Origin: Pseudomonadota bacterium
GTDB lineage: Bacteria > Pseudomonadota > Gammaproteobacteria > Steroidobacterales > Steroidobacteraceae
Assembly (NCBI GenBank): GCA_025355105.1
Contig: JANYAE010000001.1
Coordinates: 1-64,000 of the forward strand
DNA: 64,000 nt
Direction of reading: 5' to 3'
Shown here: positions 2,501-10,308 of the stretch, one piece after another
Numbering within the stretch: the stretch's first letter is position 1
Layout of the letters: the number at the start of each line of letters is the position of its first letter
Program-made: the position numbers and the translations under genes
Notes under the pieces: model-generated
What the model was told of the DNA's origin: nothing
The model's database searches: none
Seen by the model: the letters and a program-made list of their open reading frames with translations, nothing else

Positions 2501-3538
2501 ATGTCCAATTCCCGCCCTTCCGTGACCTACCGCGACGCCGGTGTCGACATCGACGCAGGCGACGAACTGGTCGAGCGCATCAAGCCGCACGTGCGACGGA
2601 CCCTGCGCAAGGAGGTGTTGGGCGGGCTCGGCGGCTTCGGCGCGCTGGTGCGCGTGCCGCTCGATCGCTACCGCAAGCCGGTCCTCGTCTCGGGCACCGA
2701 CGGCGTCGGCACCAAGCTGCGGCTCGCGATCGAGACCGGCCGGCACGACACCATCGGCATCGACCTCGTCGCGATGTGCGTCAACGACGTGGTGGTCCAG
2801 GGCGCCGAGCCGTTGTTCTTTCTCGATTACTACGCGACCGGCCACCTTGACGTCGCGGTCGCCGAACGGGTCATCGCCGGCATCGCCGCGGGCTGCGTCC
2901 AGGCCGGCTGCGCGCTGGTCGGCGGCGAGACCGCCGAGATGCCGGGGATGTACCACGACGCCGACTACGACCTCGCCGGCTTTTGCGTCGGCATCGCCGA
3001 CGAGGACCGCTTGATCGACGGCAGCACGACACGGGCCGGCGACGTCATCATCGGACTCGCCTCCTCCGGCCCGCACTCGAACGGCTACTCGCTGATCCGC
3101 AAGCTGCTCGCGCTCGGTGGCGCGACCCCGGCCACCGAAGTCGACGGCCGCAAGCTCTACGACTTGCTGCTCGCACCGACCCGCATCTACGTGAAATCGC
3201 TGCTCGCGCTGCAGGCGGAGATGGCGGTGCGCAGCTTCGCGCACATCACCGGCGGCGGCCTGCTCGACAACATCCCGCGGGTTGTGCCGGACGGCCTCGA
3301 GGTGCGCCTCAACCGGCGCGCCTGGACGCGCCCGCCGGTGTTCGACTGGCTGCAGGCGACCGGCAACATCGACGAAACCGAAATGCACCGGACCTTCAAT
3401 TGCGGAATCGGCATGACCGTCTGCGTGCCGCCGGACGGCGCCGAGCAGGCGCTCGTGCGGCTGCGGGCCCTCGGCGAAACGGCGACGGTGATCGGCGAGG
3501 TCCGTGCGGGCACGAACGGTGTCGTCCTCGACGGCTGA
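2501..3538 (+). CDS. purM: Phosphoribosylformylglycinamidine cyclo-ligase (AIR synthetase)
   Basis: 345 residues, the normal family length. PurM closes the imidazole ring: formylglycinamidine ribonucleotide plus ATP gives aminoimidazole ribonucleotide in purine synthesis. The sequence carries the expected family blocks, including the N-terminal [12 protein letters not shown], the glycine-rich [11 protein letters not shown] nucleotide-binding segment, the metal-binding [23 protein letters not shown] and the C-terminal [13 protein letters not shown]. The start codon is an ATG with no competing upstream start. purN overlaps its 3' end by 35 bases, so the two consecutive purine genes are in one transcription unit with DUF3108 behind them. 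Confidence 0.97.
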
Positions 3539-4202
3539 GGCAGCCCGTCGGCTGCCGGTCGTCATCCTGCTGTCGGGCTCCGGCAGCAACTTTGCCGCCA
3601 TCGCCGCGGCGGCCGGCCACGGCGCGCTGCCGATCGAGCTGCGGGCCGCGGTCTCGGACCGGCCGGCCGCGTACGGGCTCGTGCGGGCCCGCGCGCTCGG
3701 CATCCCGGCGCAGGCGGTGCCGGTCACCGGCCACGCCGATCGCGCGGCGCACAATGTGGCGCTTGCGGCCTGCATCGACGCCTACCGGCCCGAGCTCGTG
3801 GTCTGCGCCGGCTACATGCGCATCTTTTCGGCCGCCTTCGTCGAGCACTACGCCGACCGGATGCTCAACATCCATCCGTCGCTGCTGCCGGAGTACCGCG
3901 GCCTGAACACGCACCAGCGCGCGCTCGAGGCGGGCGCCCGCTGGCACGGCTGCTCGGTCCATTTCGTCACCGAGGAGCTGGACGGCGGCCCGCTCGTCGC
4001 GCAGGCGCCGGTGCCGGTGCTGCCCGGCGACACGGTCGAAACGCTTTCAGCGCGGGTTCATCGGGCCGAGCACAGACTCTACCCGACGGTCATCGGTTGG
4101 TACGCCACCGGTCGCTTGCGCTCGACCGCCGGCGTGGTCACGCTCGACGGCGAACCGCTCAGCACGCCGGTGCGGCTGGAGAATCTGCATGCCGAGGCTT
4201 GA
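3504..4202 (+). CDS. purN: Phosphoribosylglycinamide formyltransferase
   Basis: 232 residues if read from the GTG at 3504. A second in-frame GTG at 3519 would give 227 residues and has the better-placed purine-rich stretch before it, so the start is uncertain. The enzyme transfers a formyl group from 10-formyl-tetrahydrofolate to glycinamide ribonucleotide. The phosphate-binding GSGSNF loop follows the first strand. The catalytic Asn-His pair is in [14 protein letters not shown], and the catalytic Asp is in [10 protein letters not shown]. The residues before LPVVILLSG are extra compared with E. coli PurN. It overlaps purM upstream and DUF3108 downstream, which indicates translational coupling. 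Confidence 0.95.
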
Positions 4203-4965
4203 TGGTCGGCGCCGTCCCTGGCGAGCCTGGCTGCTCGGCCTCGGCCTTGCGTGGCTCGGCCTACCCGCGCTCGGCGAGGGCTTGCGGCCGCACGACGTCG
4301 TCTATCAGTTCCTCTTCAAAGGCGTCAGCGGCGGCGAACTCGAACTGAAACTGCGCGCCGACGCCGGGCCGGACAGCTGGATCTACGAGACCCACGCGCA
4401 CCCGAACTTCCTCGCCAGCTTCTTCGTCCGCTCAAACTCGATCGAGCGCGGCTGGTTCCGCGTGACGCCTGCCGGCGTCGAACCGCAGCGTTACTACATC
4501 GATGACGGCTCCTCCGACAAGAGCAACAGCAGCGATCTGCGCTATGACTGGGCGCAGGGCCGGATCACCGGCAGCGCACGCGGACAGCCGCTCGATCTCG
4601 CGCTCGAGCCGGGGACGCAGGATGTGATGTCGATCCGCGCGGTCGTGCTCGTGGACCTTCTCGCCGGTCGCGAGCCGCAGGAGTACACGATGCTCGACGG
4701 CCGGGAGCTCAAGCACTACGTCTACACCCGAGTCGGCACCGCGAAGCTCAAGACCGACATCGGCGAGTACGACACGGTGATCTACAAGAGCGATCGCAAG
4801 GACTCCGACGGTCGCGGTCGCATCTGGCAGTACTGGTACGCGCCGTCGCTCGGCTGGCTGCCGCTGCGCGCCGAGCAACGCGAGGACGGCAAGACGCGCA
4901 TGACGCTCGCGATCCGCTCGCTGAAATGGCTCGATGCCGGCGTCGCCGCGCCCGCAGCCCGGTGA
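4189..4965 (+). CDS. DUF3108 domain protein, exported
   Basis: 258 residues. A basic N-terminus and a hydrophobic stretch (about residues 12-29, WLLGLGLAWLGLPALG) form a signal peptide, so the protein is probably periplasmic or outer-membrane associated. The remainder is rich in beta-strand-like sequence and has the DUF3108 pattern, including PHDVVYQFLFKG near the mature N-terminus and a C-terminal YWYAPSLGWLPLR block. The start overlaps the end of purN by 14 bases, the same arrangement as in Pseudomonas. It converges on dcd with only nine bases between. No biochemical role is known for the family, although it travels with the purine genes. Confidence 0.8.
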   Translation: MPRLDGRRRPWRAWLLGLGLAWLGLPALGEGLRPHDVVYQFLFKGVSGGELELKLRADAGPDSWIYETHAHPNFLASFFVRSNSIERGWFRVTPAGVEPQRYYIDDGSSDKSNSSDLRYDWAQGRITGSARGQPLDLALEPGTQDVMSIRAVVLVDLLAGREPQEYTMLDGRELKHYVYTRVGTAKLKTDIGEYDTVIYKSDRKDSDGRGRIWQYWYAPSLGWLPLRAEQREDGKTRMTLAIRSLKWLDAGVAAPAAR

Positions 4966-4974
4966 CGCCGGCGG

Positions 4975-6663
4975 TCAGGTCTTCGGCAGCGTAACGCCGC
5001 GCTGGCCCATGTACTTGCCGGCGCGGTCCTTGTAGGACGTGCCGCACACCTCGTCCGACTCGAAGAACAGCATCTGCGCCACGCCCTCGTTGGCGTAGAT
5101 CTTCGCCGGCAGCGTTGTCGTATTGGAGAACTCGAGCGTCACGTGCCCTTCCCATTCCGGTTCCAAGGGCGTTACGTTGACGATAATCCCGCAGTTGTGG
5201 ACGAACACGCCGCACTGCAGCGCAAAGTTACCGGCCTCCGGAACGGACAGGCAGTAGACATCGTGATCGCCCTTCAGCGACCGGACCGCCGCAACTTTGT
5301 GGTTGCGATACGGACGCCCGGCCGCTTGCGCGACGACCTCGGGGAACCGGCGAAAGACCGCTCGGTCGCAGCCGAGGAGCCGCGCCGCACCCCGAATCGA
5401 GCCCGCCGCGTGCAGCGCGCGCTGCACGCCGGCCGCATCGACGTCCGCCCGCAGATCGATGCCGCGGGCAATTTCGCGCTGCGCGGCGCGACGTGATCCG
5501 TCATCTCGACTCCACGCACGCGCGCTCATGGCCGGCTGGCGCTCGCGCTCCGCTGGATCGGCAAAGCGCCGCAGCGTCGCCGCCCGGTGCCGTTCGCGCT
5601 GCTCGTCGGAGCCGTTGCGCCGCAACGCCAGAATGCGTTCGCGCGCGGCAGCGAATCGGTCGTCCGACCAGAAGGCTGTGGCGCGATCCGACCGCAAGGC
5701 AGCGAAACGCTGGCGCCAGGACGGATCCTGCGCTCGCGTCTCGAGCGCCTGACGGATCGCGGCGGAATCCTCGGCGGCGTCCAAGCCAGCGCCGTACGAT
5801 TCGCTGTTGTGCAGGCGAACGTGCTCGCTCGCAGCCATACGCACAAGATTCGTCGGCCGATTATTGCGACGGTCGAAGTCGATGTGATGTCGATGCGTGC
5901 TAGGCACGTCCCGGTAGACTCCGTGGCGCAGGTTCCACTCGTCCGCGAGCCGGTGCGTCGGCGACAAGTGCCCGGTCAGCGGCTGATATGCCATCTCGGA
6001 GCCGCGAAAGAGCTGTCGATAGAGCGGCATGAGCGCGTCGGCCGGGCGGAGGTCGCCGGCGGCGACCATCCGGCCGTCGCGGGTCATGAACAGGTGGTCC
6101 GGAGTGGCATGAATCAGGGCGCCGTCATCGAGCTCAACCTCGAGCAGGGCGTCTCTTCCAATGAATCGCGGCGAATCCAGCAGCGACACGATCATCCGCC
6201 CGTTCGCACCAATGCTGTAGCCGAAGAAAGCCTCGCCGGACTCGGCGCGGCGGGCCATCTGCTCGAGCGTCGGCGCGGTACCGTCAACCAGCGCAACCTT
6301 GGTATCGCCGCGAAAGCAGCGTGCGTACGTTGACTTCCCAAGTGTTATTACAAGCACGTTGCGCGGGATCCGAAACAGCTCGACCGTGCGCGCGAGCGCG
6401 AACGAGTTTGGCGGAATAATGGCGACGTCCGCGGTCACGTCGACGAAGCTCGCGGGGTCGAAGGCCTTCGGATCGACGATCGTCGAGTTGATGTTCGTGA
6501 AGATCTTGAACTCGTTCGCGCAGCGAACGTCGTAGCCGTAGCTCGAAGTGCCATAGGAAACGATCTTCCGACCGTCGACGGACCGTACCTGGCCGTGCTC
6601 GAAGGGCTCGATCATGCCAGTGGCGGCCATGCGGCGAATCCAATGGTCTGACTTGATGCTCAT
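4975..6663 (-). CDS. dcd: dCTP deaminase precursor interrupted by an intein
   Basis: One intact 562-codon frame. Residues 1-115 and 491-562 together form a normal 187-residue dCTP deaminase, which converts dCTP to dUTP and so feeds dTMP synthesis. Residues 116-490 are an intein. Extein motifs include [13 protein letters not shown], the catalytic STYAR (Ser111, Arg115), and VTLEFSN with the catalytic Glu at mature position 136, equivalent to Glu138 of E. coli after a two-residue gap. The insertion falls between Arg115 and Cys116, inside the active site, so the precursor should be inactive until spliced. The start [12 protein letters not shown] matches Pseudomonas Dcd; a 20-residue upstream extension is not family-like. 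It lies 89 bases downstream of mrp on the same strand. The extein reading is very secure. Splicing activity is inferred. Confidence 0.95.
5194..6318 (-). mobile_element. HNH homing-endonuclease intein in Dcd (375 residues)
   Basis: Splicing motifs are complete. The first residue is Cys ([10 protein letters not shown], block A). Block B is IHATPDHLF with the T-x-x-H pair at precursor residues 187 and 190. Block F is [14 protein letters not shown], and block G ends GVFVHN before Cys491, giving the penultimate His489, terminal Asn490 and Cys+1 nucleophile. Block F has Cys where Asp is usual. Between them lies an HNH nuclease segment ([10 protein letters not shown] and SEHVRLHN, about residues 257-286). 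A basic, helical stretch rich in Arg and Ala follows, then a helix-turn-helix-like segment ([20 protein letters not shown], about 421-440), probably for DNA recognition. By eye, base composition is somewhat lower in GC than the host genes. No stop or frameshift is present, so it could be active in splicing and homing. Confidence 0.93.
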
Positions 6664-6752
6664 GCGTCCCCCGGACCAAACGATCGAATCATCGCTGCGC
6701 CCACCGTCGACGGTGAGTCGCATCTGTCCCCGGAATCGACCGATTCACGGCG

Positions 6753-7826
6753 CTAGTCGTCGCTGACGGAAAGCGTCGGGAACGCGGTCGTCGCGGCCCC
6801 GGAGGCGAGGCGCGCGGCCGTACGGCGCGCGATCTCGTGGTAGGCCTGAGCGAGACGGCCGTCCGGCTCGGCAACGACCGTCGGCCGGCCGCCGTCGGTC
6901 TGCTCGCGGATGCGGATGTCGAGCGGCAGGCTGCCGAGCAGCGGCACGCCGTATTCCTTCGCCATCCGATCGCCACCGCCGCTACCGAAGATGTGTTCCT
7001 CGTGGCCACACTTCGAGCAGATATGCGTTGCCATGTTCTCGACGATGCCGAGCACCGGCACCGAGACCTTTCGGAACATCATCAGGCCCTTGCGCGCGTC
7101 CGCGAGCGCGATGTCCTGGGGCGTCGTCACGATGATGGCGCCGCTGACCGGCACGCGCTGCGCGAGCGTGAGCTGGATATCGCCAGTGCCCGGCGGCATG
7201 TCGACGATCAGGTAGTCGAGCTCGCCCCACTGGGTATCGCCGAGCAACTGCGTGAGCGCCTGGGTGACCATCGGGCCGCGCCAGACCATCGGCTGCGCCG
7301 GATCGATCAGGAAGCCGATCGACATCACCGCGACGCCGTAGGCCCGCAGCGGCTCGATCTGCTTGCCGTCAGGCGTGTTCGGGCGCTCGCCCTCGAGCCC
7401 CATCATCAACGGCTGGCTGGGCCCGTAGATGTCCGCGTCCAGCAGGCCGACCCGGGCACCCTGCGCGGCGAGCGCGAGGGCGAGGTTGACGGCGGTGGTT
7501 GACTTGCCGACTCCGCCCTTGCCGGAGGCAACCGCCAGTACGTTGCGGATCGTCGGCAGTGGCTTGAGGCTGCCCTGCACGGCGTGCGCAACGATCTTCG
7601 AACTCAGCCGCAGCCGGACGCCACCGGTCCAGCCGGCGGCCGAGAGCTCCTGCCCCAGCAACTGACCGAGCGGGCCCTCGTAGCCGCCGGCGGGGAAGCC
7701 GAGCGTGATGTCGATCACGGCGTCCGGACCAACAATTTCCGTACCGGTCACGGCGGCGCCGAACGGCTGGCCGAGATAGGGCTCGACGACGGCGGAAGCT
7801 CGGGCGCGAAGCTCGTTGGCGTTCAT
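6753..7826 (-). CDS. apbC: Mrp/ApbC family iron-sulfur carrier ATPase
   Basis: 357 residues. An N-terminal MIP18/DUF59-type domain (about residues 1-85) precedes a P-loop NTPase of the MinD/Mrp type with the deviant Walker A SGKGGVGKST at residues 101-110. The C-terminal half has a CSKCG motif (C-x2-C), the pair that holds a bridging Fe-S cluster in Mrp dimers. The family binds and delivers Fe-S clusters to target proteins in the cytoplasm. The ATG at 7826 begins MNANELRARA, the normal family start; longer readings run into unrelated sequence. It is upstream of dcd on the same strand, a pairing also known from Pseudomonas, and divergent from the kinase gene across 91 bases. Confidence 0.93.
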   Translation of the reverse strand: MNANELRARASAVVEPYLGQPFGAAVTGTEIVGPDAVIDITLGFPAGGYEGPLGQLLGQELSAAGWTGGVRLRLSSKIVAHAVQGSLKPLPTIRNVLAVASGKGGVGKSTTAVNLALALAAQGARVGLLDADIYGPSQPLMMGLEGERPNTPDGKQIEPLRAYGVAVMSIGFLIDPAQPMVWRGPMVTQALTQLLGDTQWGELDYLIVDMPPGTGDIQLTLAQRVPVSGAIIVTTPQDIALADARKGLMMFRKVSVPVLGIVENMATHICSKCGHEEHIFGSGGGDRMAKEYGVPLLGSLPLDIRIREQTDGGRPTVVAEPDGRLAQAYHEIARRTAARLASGAATTAFPTLSVSDD

Positions 7827-7900
7827 TGGGGTGGGGTATCGACCAGTGACCCGCCATTCTAGCGGACCGGTACGCACCGGGGGCGGCTCGGGAGGCCCCC

Positions 7901-7911
7901 TATGGCATAAT
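7901..7911 (+). promoter_or_regulatory. Promoter -10 region placing transcription start at the kinase GTG
   Basis: TATGGCATAAT is an extended -10-like element (CATAAT at 7906-7911). The GTG start of the kinase gene is only six bases after it, so transcription should begin at or next to the start codon and the mRNA would be leaderless or nearly so. No convincing -35 is visible, which fits an extended -10 promoter. Confidence 0.45.
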
Positions 7912-7917
7912 TCTGGG

Positions 7918-10308
7918 GTGAAGTTTCTATCGTCTCTACGCGGTGAAAAACTCCTCGCCGACATCAAGTCGGGCGGCGACCCGTCCAGCCCCACGGTCCG
8001 CAAGGCCGTCGAGAAGCTGATCGGCCTCGGCAAGGACGGGATCCCGATGGTGATCGAGGCGCTCGGCACCGCCGACAAGGGCGCGACGATGGCCTTCGTC
8101 GAGGTGCTGACCGCGCTGGCCGACGCCAAGAACGTGCCCCTGATCCTGGCAGGGCTGACCGAGCCCAACCCGCGGACGACCGCCGCCGTCGCCTGGGCGC
8201 TGGGCAGCGCCAAGGCTTTCCCGGCCAGCCTGCTGCTGGATGCGCTCAAGAACCCGGACGTCGCCGGCCCGGCGCTCATCGAGGTCATCGCCGCCCACAA
8301 GGCGCGAATCCCGCTGCGGGACCTGCTCGCGGCAGCGTACGCCCACGACTCCGGCGACAAGGCCGCGCTGTTCAAGATCATCGCGGACGTCGCCGACGAG
8401 AGCTCGATTCCGGACCTGCTGGCACGGCTTGACGGCAAGGACTTCATCGTCCGCATCAACCTGATGGACATCCTGTCGCGCTTCGGCACGCCGGAGGTCC
8501 AGCAAGCGCTGATCAGTCAGCTCAAGGACCCCTCGAAGATCATCCGCCAGGCGGCCCTCGCCGCCCTGCTCAAGACCCCGGCGCTGACCGAGATCGAGGC
8601 GGTGGCGCCGCTGCTCGCCGACGTCGACATGGAAGTCACCAATCGGGCCATCGAACTGCTGATCAAGGCCCATCACCCGCAGACCGTCCGCTTCCTGATC
8701 CCGGTGCTCAAGGAAGAGTCCGAGTACGCGCGCCGCGCCGCGGTCGAGGTGCTGAACGAGGTCGGCGACGCCAATTCGATCAAGCACCTGCTCGAGGCGA
8801 TCAAGGACAGCGACTGGTGGGTGCGCAGCCGCGCCGCCGATGCGCTCGGCAAGATCGGCGGGCCGCGCGTGGTGGACGCCGTGCTGCTGCTGGTGCGCGA
8901 CCCGGACGAGGACATCCGCCGCACCGCGATCGAGATCCTGAACCTCACCAAGGACGAGCGCGCGGTCGACTATCTGCTGCAGGCGACCCGCGACACCGAC
9001 TGGTGGGTCAGCGAGCGCGCCGTCGATGCGCTGGCCGACCTCGGCAGCGAGCGCGCCCTGCCGCGGCTCATCGAGATGCTGCGCGGACCGGCCCGCTCCG
9101 TGCCATCGGCGATCCGCGCGCTCGGCAAGCTCGGCGACTCGCGGATCATCGACTCGCTGCTGCCGCAGCTGACGCGACCCGAGAAGGAGATCCGCGTCGA
9201 GACCATGCACGCGCTCGCGCGCCTGACCGACGAGGCCAACGCCGAGACGATCCGCGGCAAGATCCGCGCGCTGGGCGAGATCTCGACCGACCAGACGGTG
9301 GTGGTCGCCGCCAACCGGGCGCTCGAGGACCTCGACGCCCGCTTCTCGACCGCCGAGCTCGCCTCGCAGCGCAAGGCCGAGCACGTCGCGGCAGCGCCGG
9401 CGCGCACGATGCTGATCGAAAATGCGGACCTCGCCGAGCTGGTGCGCCAGAACGAGGCCGCCGCCCAGCGCCTCGACATCTCGACGCTGAAGACCGGTGA
9501 CATCCTCGACGGCCGCTACAAGTACATCGAGAAGATCGGCAAGGGCGCCTTCGGCACGGTGCTGCTGATGGAGGACACGGTCGTCGACGAGCGGCTGATC
9601 CTGAAGTTCCTGAACCCGGCAGTATCCGGCGACGAGGAGATGATGCAGCGCTTCGTGCACGAGCTGCGCTACTCGCGCAAGATCACGCACCGCAACGTCA
9701 TCCGGATCTACGACTTCCTGTTCATCCGCGGCAACTACGCGATCTCGATGGAGTACTTCCCGAGCCACACGCTCGGTGCCGAGATTGTCAACGAGAAGCC
9801 GATGACGATCGCGCGCGCCGTCAAATACGGCATCGACATCGCGACCGGCATGACGGTCGCACACGAGATCGGCATCGTGCACCGCGACCTGAAGCCCGCC
9901 AACGTGCTGATCAATGATCAGGGCCTGCTCAAGATCGTCGACTTCGGCGTGGCGGCCGCACAGCGCGAGGGCGACGTGCAGCTGACCAAGACCGGCTACG
10001 TGATCGGCTCGCCCAAGTACATGGCCCCGGAGCAGATCCTCGGCAAGCAGGTGGATCCGCGCGCCGACGTCTACAGCACCGGCGTGATCCTCTACGAAAT
10101 GCTGACCGGCGTGCCGCCCTACAGCCGCGGCGACCATATGGCCGTCATGTACCAGCACGTGCAGGGCAAGGCGCGTCCGCCGATCGAAATCAACAGCCAG
10201 CTGCCAAAGCCGCTCTCCGACCTCGTAGTCAAGGCGATGGCGGTCGACAAGACCAAGCGCTTTCAGAGCATGGACGAGCTGCGCGTGGCGCTCGAGAAGT
10301 TCCTCTAG
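7918..10308 (+). CDS. HEAT-repeat Ser/Thr protein kinase, upstream of pilT-type genes
   Basis: 796 residues. About residues 1-480 are tandem HEAT repeats of roughly 31 residues, for example the near-copies DSDWWVRSRAADALGKIG and DTDWWVSERAVDALADLG. A linker leads to a eukaryotic-type kinase domain at about 525-796. This has the glycine loop IGKGAFGTV from residue 540, a Lys in LILKFLNP, HRDLKPANVLI with catalytic Asp657, DFG at 675-677, and the activation-segment end GSPKYMAPEQ, so it should be active. No membrane segment or PASTA repeat is present, so the protein should be cytoplasmic. The GTG at 7918 is preferred because upstream in-frame sequence is not family-like. Two PilT-type ATPase genes follow after 14 bases, which suggests a role in pilus control. 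Substrates are unknown. Confidence 0.9.
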   Translation: MKFLSSLRGEKLLADIKSGGDPSSPTVRKAVEKLIGLGKDGIPMVIEALGTADKGATMAFVEVLTALADAKNVPLILAGLTEPNPRTTAAVAWALGSAKAFPASLLLDALKNPDVAGPALIEVIAAHKARIPLRDLLAAAYAHDSGDKAALFKIIADVADESSIPDLLARLDGKDFIVRINLMDILSRFGTPEVQQALISQLKDPSKIIRQAALAALLKTPALTEIEAVAPLLADVDMEVTNRAIELLIKAHHPQTVRFLIPVLKEESEYARRAAVEVLNEVGDANSIKHLLEAIKDSDWWVRSRAADALGKIGGPRVVDAVLLLVRDPDEDIRRTAIEILNLTKDERAVDYLLQATRDTDWWVSERAVDALADLGSERALPRLIEMLRGPARSVPSAIRALGKLGDSRIIDSLLPQLTRPEKEIRVETMHALARLTDEANAETIRGKIRALGEISTDQTVVVAANRALEDLDARFSTAELASQRKAEHVAAAPARTMLIENADLAELVRQNEAAAQRLDISTLKTGDILDGRYKYIEKIGKGAFGTVLLMEDTVVDERLILKFLNPAVSGDEEMMQRFVHELRYSRKITHRNVIRIYDFLFIRGNYAISMEYFPSHTLGAEIVNEKPMTIARAVKYGIDIATGMTVAHEIGIVHRDLKPANVLINDQGLLKIVDFGVAAAQREGDVQLTKTGYVIGSPKYMAPEQILGKQVDPRADVYSTGVILYEMLTGVPPYSRGDHMAVMYQHVQGKARPPIEINSQLPKPLSDLVVKAMAVDKTKRFQSMDELRVALEKFL

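Follow-up and report, generated by a model that had tools for sequence, protein, structure and literature searches.

The dcd gene and its intein

The window, by which we mean the whole stretch of 64,000 nucleotides analysed here (GCA_025355105.1, contig JANYAE010000001.1, family Steroidobacteraceae), carries on its minus strand an open reading frame (ORF) of 582 amino acids without internal stop (4975–6723) that encodes dCTP deaminase (Dcd) with an in-frame insert. The frame opens 20 codons upstream of Met21, the likely true start, which was deduced from the alignment with the solved Dcd structure 4dhk. With this deduced start, family models and structure matches divide the gene as translated (4975–6663) into an N-extein, an intein, a C-extein and a stop codon. 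The N-extein (115 codons, 6319–6663, minus strand) ends in GKSTYAR and contains Ser111 and Arg115, which, going by E. coli Dcd, we take to be catalytic residues. The C-extein (72 codons beginning CGIIVN, 4978–5193, minus strand) is followed directly by the stop codon. Removing the insert (residues 136–510 of the ORF) leaves a Dcd of 187 amino acids counted from Met21 (MSIKSD...), and the split falls after residue 115 (GKSTYAR^CGIIVN). The model TIGR02274 identified the protein as a dCTP deaminase (126 bits, cut-off 92.8), Pfam DCD scored 97.9 bits (cut-off 27), and the solved structures 4dhk (E = 2.7e-90) and 3km3 (E = 8.6e-62) matched both flanks in two pieces meeting at the split. The original prediction, made from the letters of the window, had placed 375 extra residues in a single Dcd frame between Arg115 and Cys116 and had joined the flanks into a normal 187-residue enzyme; the ORF, the family models and the structure matches agree with it.

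The surroundings of dcd are a housekeeping setting, judging by the tested neighbours at 2501–4965 and 6756–7838. These are AIR synthase (2501–3538), a formyl transferase (3504–4202) and a DUF3108 protein (4189–4965), all on the plus strand, and an Mrp/NUBPL-type P-loop NTPase on the minus strand (6756–7838; Pfam PF10609, E = 2e-104). At 7816–10308, a long ORF fuses HEAT repeats with a protein kinase domain. Searches of the whole source assembly found a single dcd, the window copy.

Family models, alignment and predicted structure identify the insert as an intein of 375 amino acids (5194–6318, minus strand). It passed the cut-offs of the models intein_Nterm (26.7 bits, cut-off 24.5), intein_Cterm (21.3 bits, cut-off 15.6) and Pfam Intein_splicing (46.1 bits, cut-off 35.8). 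Its splicing residues were compared across 55 distinct inteins inserted at the same position, GKSTYAR^C, hereafter site a (32 from the family, 22 from other genome contigs and one from phage CL131). Invariant in 55/55 were Cys1, the first intein residue and site of the N–S acyl shift (6316–6318); Thr72 and His75 of block B (TPDH, intein residues 72–75, 6094–6105); Cys356 in the block that contains DVYC (residues 353–367, 5218–5262); Asn375 of block G (His374-Asn375, 5194–5199); and Cys+1, the first C-extein residue (5191–5193), all on the minus strand. The penultimate His of the window copy is present in only 27/55. Cys1, the Thr-x-x-His of block B, the C-terminal Asn and the Cys+1 nucleophile are all present, the sequence signature of a class-1 intein with the full motif set that had been predicted (Cys1, TPDH, HN, Cys+1). 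The presence of Cys1 rules out class 3, in which position 1 has no nucleophile. The intein was modelled with AlphaFold2 from 21 rows (mean pLDDT 76.8); at both splicing ends the blocks reached about 90, and the nuclease part was modelled less well. Foldseek grouped the model with splicing domains of solved inteins, 4kl5 being the best match (E = 3.1e-6, probability 1.00, TM 0.60 by target length), and the predicted fold is that of a Hint domain.

The intein also contains a putative HNH nuclease core (residues 142–170, HRHH...NN...N...H...H, 5809–5895, minus strand). Although Pfam HNH_3 stayed under its cut-off (20.4 bits, E = 4e-4, cut-off 24.8), the core residues of the catalytic motif are present: H142, H144, H145, N152, N153, H166 and H170 were invariant, and N157 nearly so, in a 21-row alignment (A1) of the window intein, 14 Dcd inteins and six GyrB-like inteins. 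On the 3' side of the nuclease lies a helix-turn-helix-like motif ending in FRRF (residues 306–325, 5344–5403, minus strand), predicted to be helical and with its pattern found in 22/55 site-a inteins; assigned by eye without a domain match, it is probably the DNA-binding part of the nuclease. Family models, splicing residues and HNH core residues together support the earlier description of the insert as an HNH-bearing class-1 intein in Dcd, and the HNH motif it had named is borne out despite the low Pfam score.

Distribution, decay and ancestry of site-a inteins

The junction of site a was uninterrupted in 142 of 217 genomes of the family (exact pattern; the reversed-pattern control gave 0 among the matches listed), 32/217 carried an intein at site a, and 15/217 carried one at a second site, site b, three of these 15 having both. 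All 15 site-b matches counted had E ≤ 1e-52 and proved on reading to be Dcd; the next match had 6.7e-38. No genome was common to the empty and the invaded lists. In all, 186/217 genomes were placed, and the remaining 31, which gave neither an empty nor an invaded site, have dcd missing or broken or other residues at the junction. Among the 15 genomes of the window's genus, six had intein a, four had intein b (one with both) and six were empty. Five other genomes of the family (G024, G075, G105, G167 and G168) carried a full-size intein (375–376 aa) at the same site. Whether the insert was a fixed host domain or a sporadic intein had been raised at the outset; with so many empty junctions it is sporadic, and a fixed domain of Dcd is ruled out.

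The 55 site-a inteins ranged from 190 to 386 aa in length. A five-residue HNH core was intact in 23/55, and in 8/32 within the family. Six family copies, the window among them, combined full size with an intact core, and two shortened copies also retained it. With splicing residues invariant in 55/55 and the HNH core intact in 23/55, the sequences give a picture of splicing apparently kept under selection while the nuclease is lost. A further site-a Dcd intein, in a Burkholderiaceae metagenome-assembled genome (MAG; L058), has a frame break near its 3' end, either real decay or a sequencing error, and was excluded from the set of 55.

The 22 further distinct carriers from genome contigs (among L050–L074 and L077) are in records titled Proteobacteria, Cyanobacteria, Chloroflexi and, in one case, Actinomycetota. 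Like the window copy, the full-size inteins among them have the HNH core and the helix-turn-helix-like motif; unlike it, 8/22 are without an intact core and shortened to 192–241 aa. On viral contigs, 28 Dcd loci were found and none had an insert (insert 0 by script in 22; total span 175–196 aa in the other six, L023–L028). A query with the intein by close patterns yielded two viral loci (L083 and L084), both in a non-Dcd phage gene; the protein, which holds a related intein, resembles a portal protein by eye. Among annotated phages, 105 records matched and only one, CL131, covered most of the query. With no insert in the 28 viral Dcd loci and only this one phage match of such extent, a viral origin of the intein was dropped.

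The CL131 gene provides the closest precedent. Excerpts of PMC6293099 describe an HNH intein in the Dcd of cyanophage vB_AphaS-CL131 (gp069, MG209611) that excised itself in E. coli, the purified product of about 25 kDa agreeing with a predicted 23.8 kDa after splicing; the same excerpts cite earlier bacterial Dcd inteins in Proteobacteria and Chloroflexi. Gp069 has in common with the window the host gene, the GKSTYAR^C junction and the HintN and HNH_3 domains. It differs in being a phage gene with an insert of 352 aa, and identity is only 40% in the splicing core and 50% in the extein. The window intein is thus a further case at a known Dcd site and not a new kind. The original prediction had named no earlier intein at this site in Dcd and had proposed a search for insertions there; that search returned the 55 inteins, CL131 included. 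More distant relatives have the same Hint and HNH layout in another host gene, which by eye is GyrB. These inteins, which come from archaea and candidate phyla (L075, L076 and L078–L081), are 28–32% identical to the window intein (six aligned), and they differ in having Ser at +1 and Asp where the window intein has Cys356. L082 holds a GyrB-like HNH intein of this kind in shortened form. The best intein-bearing family model was RtcB intein 2 (NCBIfam NF052663, E = 4.7e-36), which belongs to another host protein and scored 124.8 bits, far under its cut-off of 1050.

We assessed mobility by comparing inteins with the genes that hold them. An extein tree was built from 86 of 115 distinct genes, leaving out L058 and the 28 viral loci and taking in 18/142 empty genes of the family. 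On it the four states needed 25 changes versus a shuffled mean of 32.1; the tree is weak, with 7/82 inner branches starred and 45 open. Inteins of Trichormus, Nostoc and Prochloron (L057, L062 and L072, three of the six cyanobacterial loci) were 64–70% identical to the window intein in the splicing core, whereas their exteins were only 52–54% identical. Within the genus this order was reversed (inteins 61–71%, exteins 88–91%, four compared). Since inteins diverge more than exteins within the genus and less in the cyanobacteria, the cyanobacterial excess points to cross-phylum transfer. Two Chloroflexi had no intein excess (core 66 and 69%, extein 66 and 70%). Transfer of the intein between phyla is supported but not proven by these comparisons.

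The history of the window intein itself may be vertical. A quick tree placed it apart from the five other site-a inteins of its genus. A careful tree contained a supported seven-row set (99/97) of the six genus inteins and L109, and a branch separating the genus inteins alone from all other rows appeared in 2% of bootstrap trees. In an AU test, a single clade of the window and the five other genus inteins was not rejected (p = 0.80), and the tree held to that clade scored better. We therefore dropped separate acquisition of the window intein within the genus.

A footprint of co-conversion in the flanks was also considered. GC3 of the window gene was 11/20 near the site versus 139/160 elsewhere (Fisher p = 0.0014, examined after seeing the sequence). 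Mean near-minus-far GC3 was −0.07 for genes with site a only (26 genes), −0.20 for site b only (13 genes), −0.14 for doubles (three genes) and −0.02 for empty genes (18 genes), in a set of 29/32 family site-a genes, one site-b gene of another family and 18/142 empty genes. Two of the 18 empty genes (L113 and L119) also drop, by about 0.26 and 0.49, compared with 0.32 in the window, and the near flanks, compared with other genes for identity, showed no clear co-conversion signal. We set aside the AT-rich flank as a weak, post hoc footprint that these two empty genes display too.

A second intein site and genes with both inteins

Site b (LGK^STYAR) lies immediately before the serine, 15 bp upstream of site a, and was occupied in 17 distinct genes. 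Its intein had Cys1, His-Asn and Ser+1 in 17/17; in both copies scanned (2 of 17), Pfam Intein_splicing and LAGLIDADG_3 were found, and the nearest solved relatives of the copy in L107 were inteins of replicative helicase (DnaB). The site-b lineage differs from that of site a. Fifteen of the 17 genes came from the window's family, one (L065) from a gammaproteobacterial MAG and one (L133) from another family of the class. In a search of 369 genomes, 16 matched, and of the 15 loci taken from these L133 was the single Dcd case, with a 244-aa form of the intein. In many genomes of the family, other frames of near 900 aa, perhaps DnaB, hold an intein more distantly related to that of site b.

Site b alone was occupied in 13 genes (L107, L110, L111, L044, L039, L038, L133, L138, L143, L144, L147, L150 and L151), and four carried both inteins: L037 (G005), L108 (G123), L109 (G068) and L065. 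In these double genes, the frame was open over the 790–869 residues extracted, and STYAR alone separated the inteins. This middle extein of five residues presumably contains two catalytic residues. The site-a intein of the double genes was shortened (191–271 aa) and the site-b intein near full size (393–411 aa). The HNH core residues of the site-a intein were still intact in L065. In L037, the first LAGLIDADG motif of the site-b intein reads LLGMMIAAGQ, compared with LLGLMISEGQ in L107, and by this altered motif its nuclease, too, may be in decay. The double state needed four changes on the site-b tree, at least three of them forced by well-supported branches, with gains and losses indistinguishable.

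We consider it probable that two unrelated inteins target the active-site segment of Dcd, one with an HNH nuclease at STYAR^C and one with LAGLIDADG at LGK^S, that STYAR is joined at both ends in the four double genes by two splicing reactions, and that intein b, as the combination of a shortened a with a near-full-size b suggests, invaded genes holding intein a once the latter had begun to lose its nuclease region. By analogy, the a/b pattern would fit stepwise invasion. According to excerpts of PMC10643990, homing of neighbouring inteins of the MCM gene is poor when both enter an empty gene together and improves when the allele already has one of them. Like the Dcd pair, the haloarchaeal MCM-a and MCM-d inteins described there lie near each other in one gene; unlike it, they occupy an archaeal helicase, and these excerpts give no spacing figure for comparison. 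In the open-access literature we found no report of a second Dcd intein site or of very short middle exteins, and deaminase was not mentioned in the available portions of PMC6390638 and PMC4853749. The double genes and the site-b intein are the part for which no report was found in open-access text.

Proposed splicing and homing, and possible roles of the intein

The window gene almost certainly holds, at a known site of chromosomal dcd, a class-1 intein that bears an HNH homing endonuclease and would splice itself out and home. After translation, the Hint domain would initiate splicing by an N–S shift at Cys1, followed by transesterification to Cys+1, cyclisation of Asn375 and an S–N shift, which would release the 187-residue Dcd and a free intein of 375 residues. 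Once free, the intein would cleave, at the conserved site, dcd alleles that lack it, and would be copied into them as the break is repaired from the carrier; the sporadic distribution is an indirect sign of such homing.

Going by the gene structure, an active Dcd should require this splicing, and as only one dcd was found in the assembly, Dcd activity should depend on it. The original prediction had extended this dependence to the supply of dUTP and dTMP, which is too strong. The source genome encodes ribonucleotide reductase, and UDP reduction could also feed dUTP; with this other route, a cut-off of dUTP and dTMP in the absence of splicing is unsupported. A search for dUTPase gave no match in the source assembly (G000), compared with 29/29 other genomes searched that have one. 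As all of these have the enzyme and the source assembly is about 91% complete, its absence is probably an assembly gap, and for the same reasons we dropped loss of dUTPase as a cause of dependence on Dcd.

Could the intein act as a conditional switch, its splicing answering a signal such as thiol redox at Cys1, Cys356 or Cys+1 and so gating dUTP synthesis? The intein adjoins the active site, these three cysteines are conserved in 55/55, 24/32 family carriers keep an intein whose HNH core is no longer intact, and portions of published work describe conditional splicing for other inteins. We nonetheless regard a switch as unlikely, given the prevalence of empty junctions in the family and the alternative route through ribonucleotide reductase. 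Persistence after nuclease loss is, moreover, expected anyway, as nothing short of a precise deletion removes an intein. Still more doubtful is a decayed, non-splicing intein that leaves dcd without function. The broken frame of its relative L058 would fit such decay, but the frame of the window copy is open, all of its tested splicing residues, which are invariant across site-a inteins, are present, and no other dcd was found in the assembly. An assembly chimera, or a host domain peculiar to the window Dcd, is conceivable in a draft of 142 contigs but can practically be dismissed in view of the full-size inteins at the same site in five independent genomes of the family and the empty site in most others.

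On its own, the window contributes one more full-length copy, to all appearance intact, at an intein site already known. The family around it is a natural experiment on the homing cycle, with empty, full, shortened, second-site and double states found even among the 15 genomes of a single genus. Two questions can be put to the double genes: how short an extein shared by two inteins can be if both are still to splice, and whether neighbouring inteins with overlapping target sites block one another from homing.
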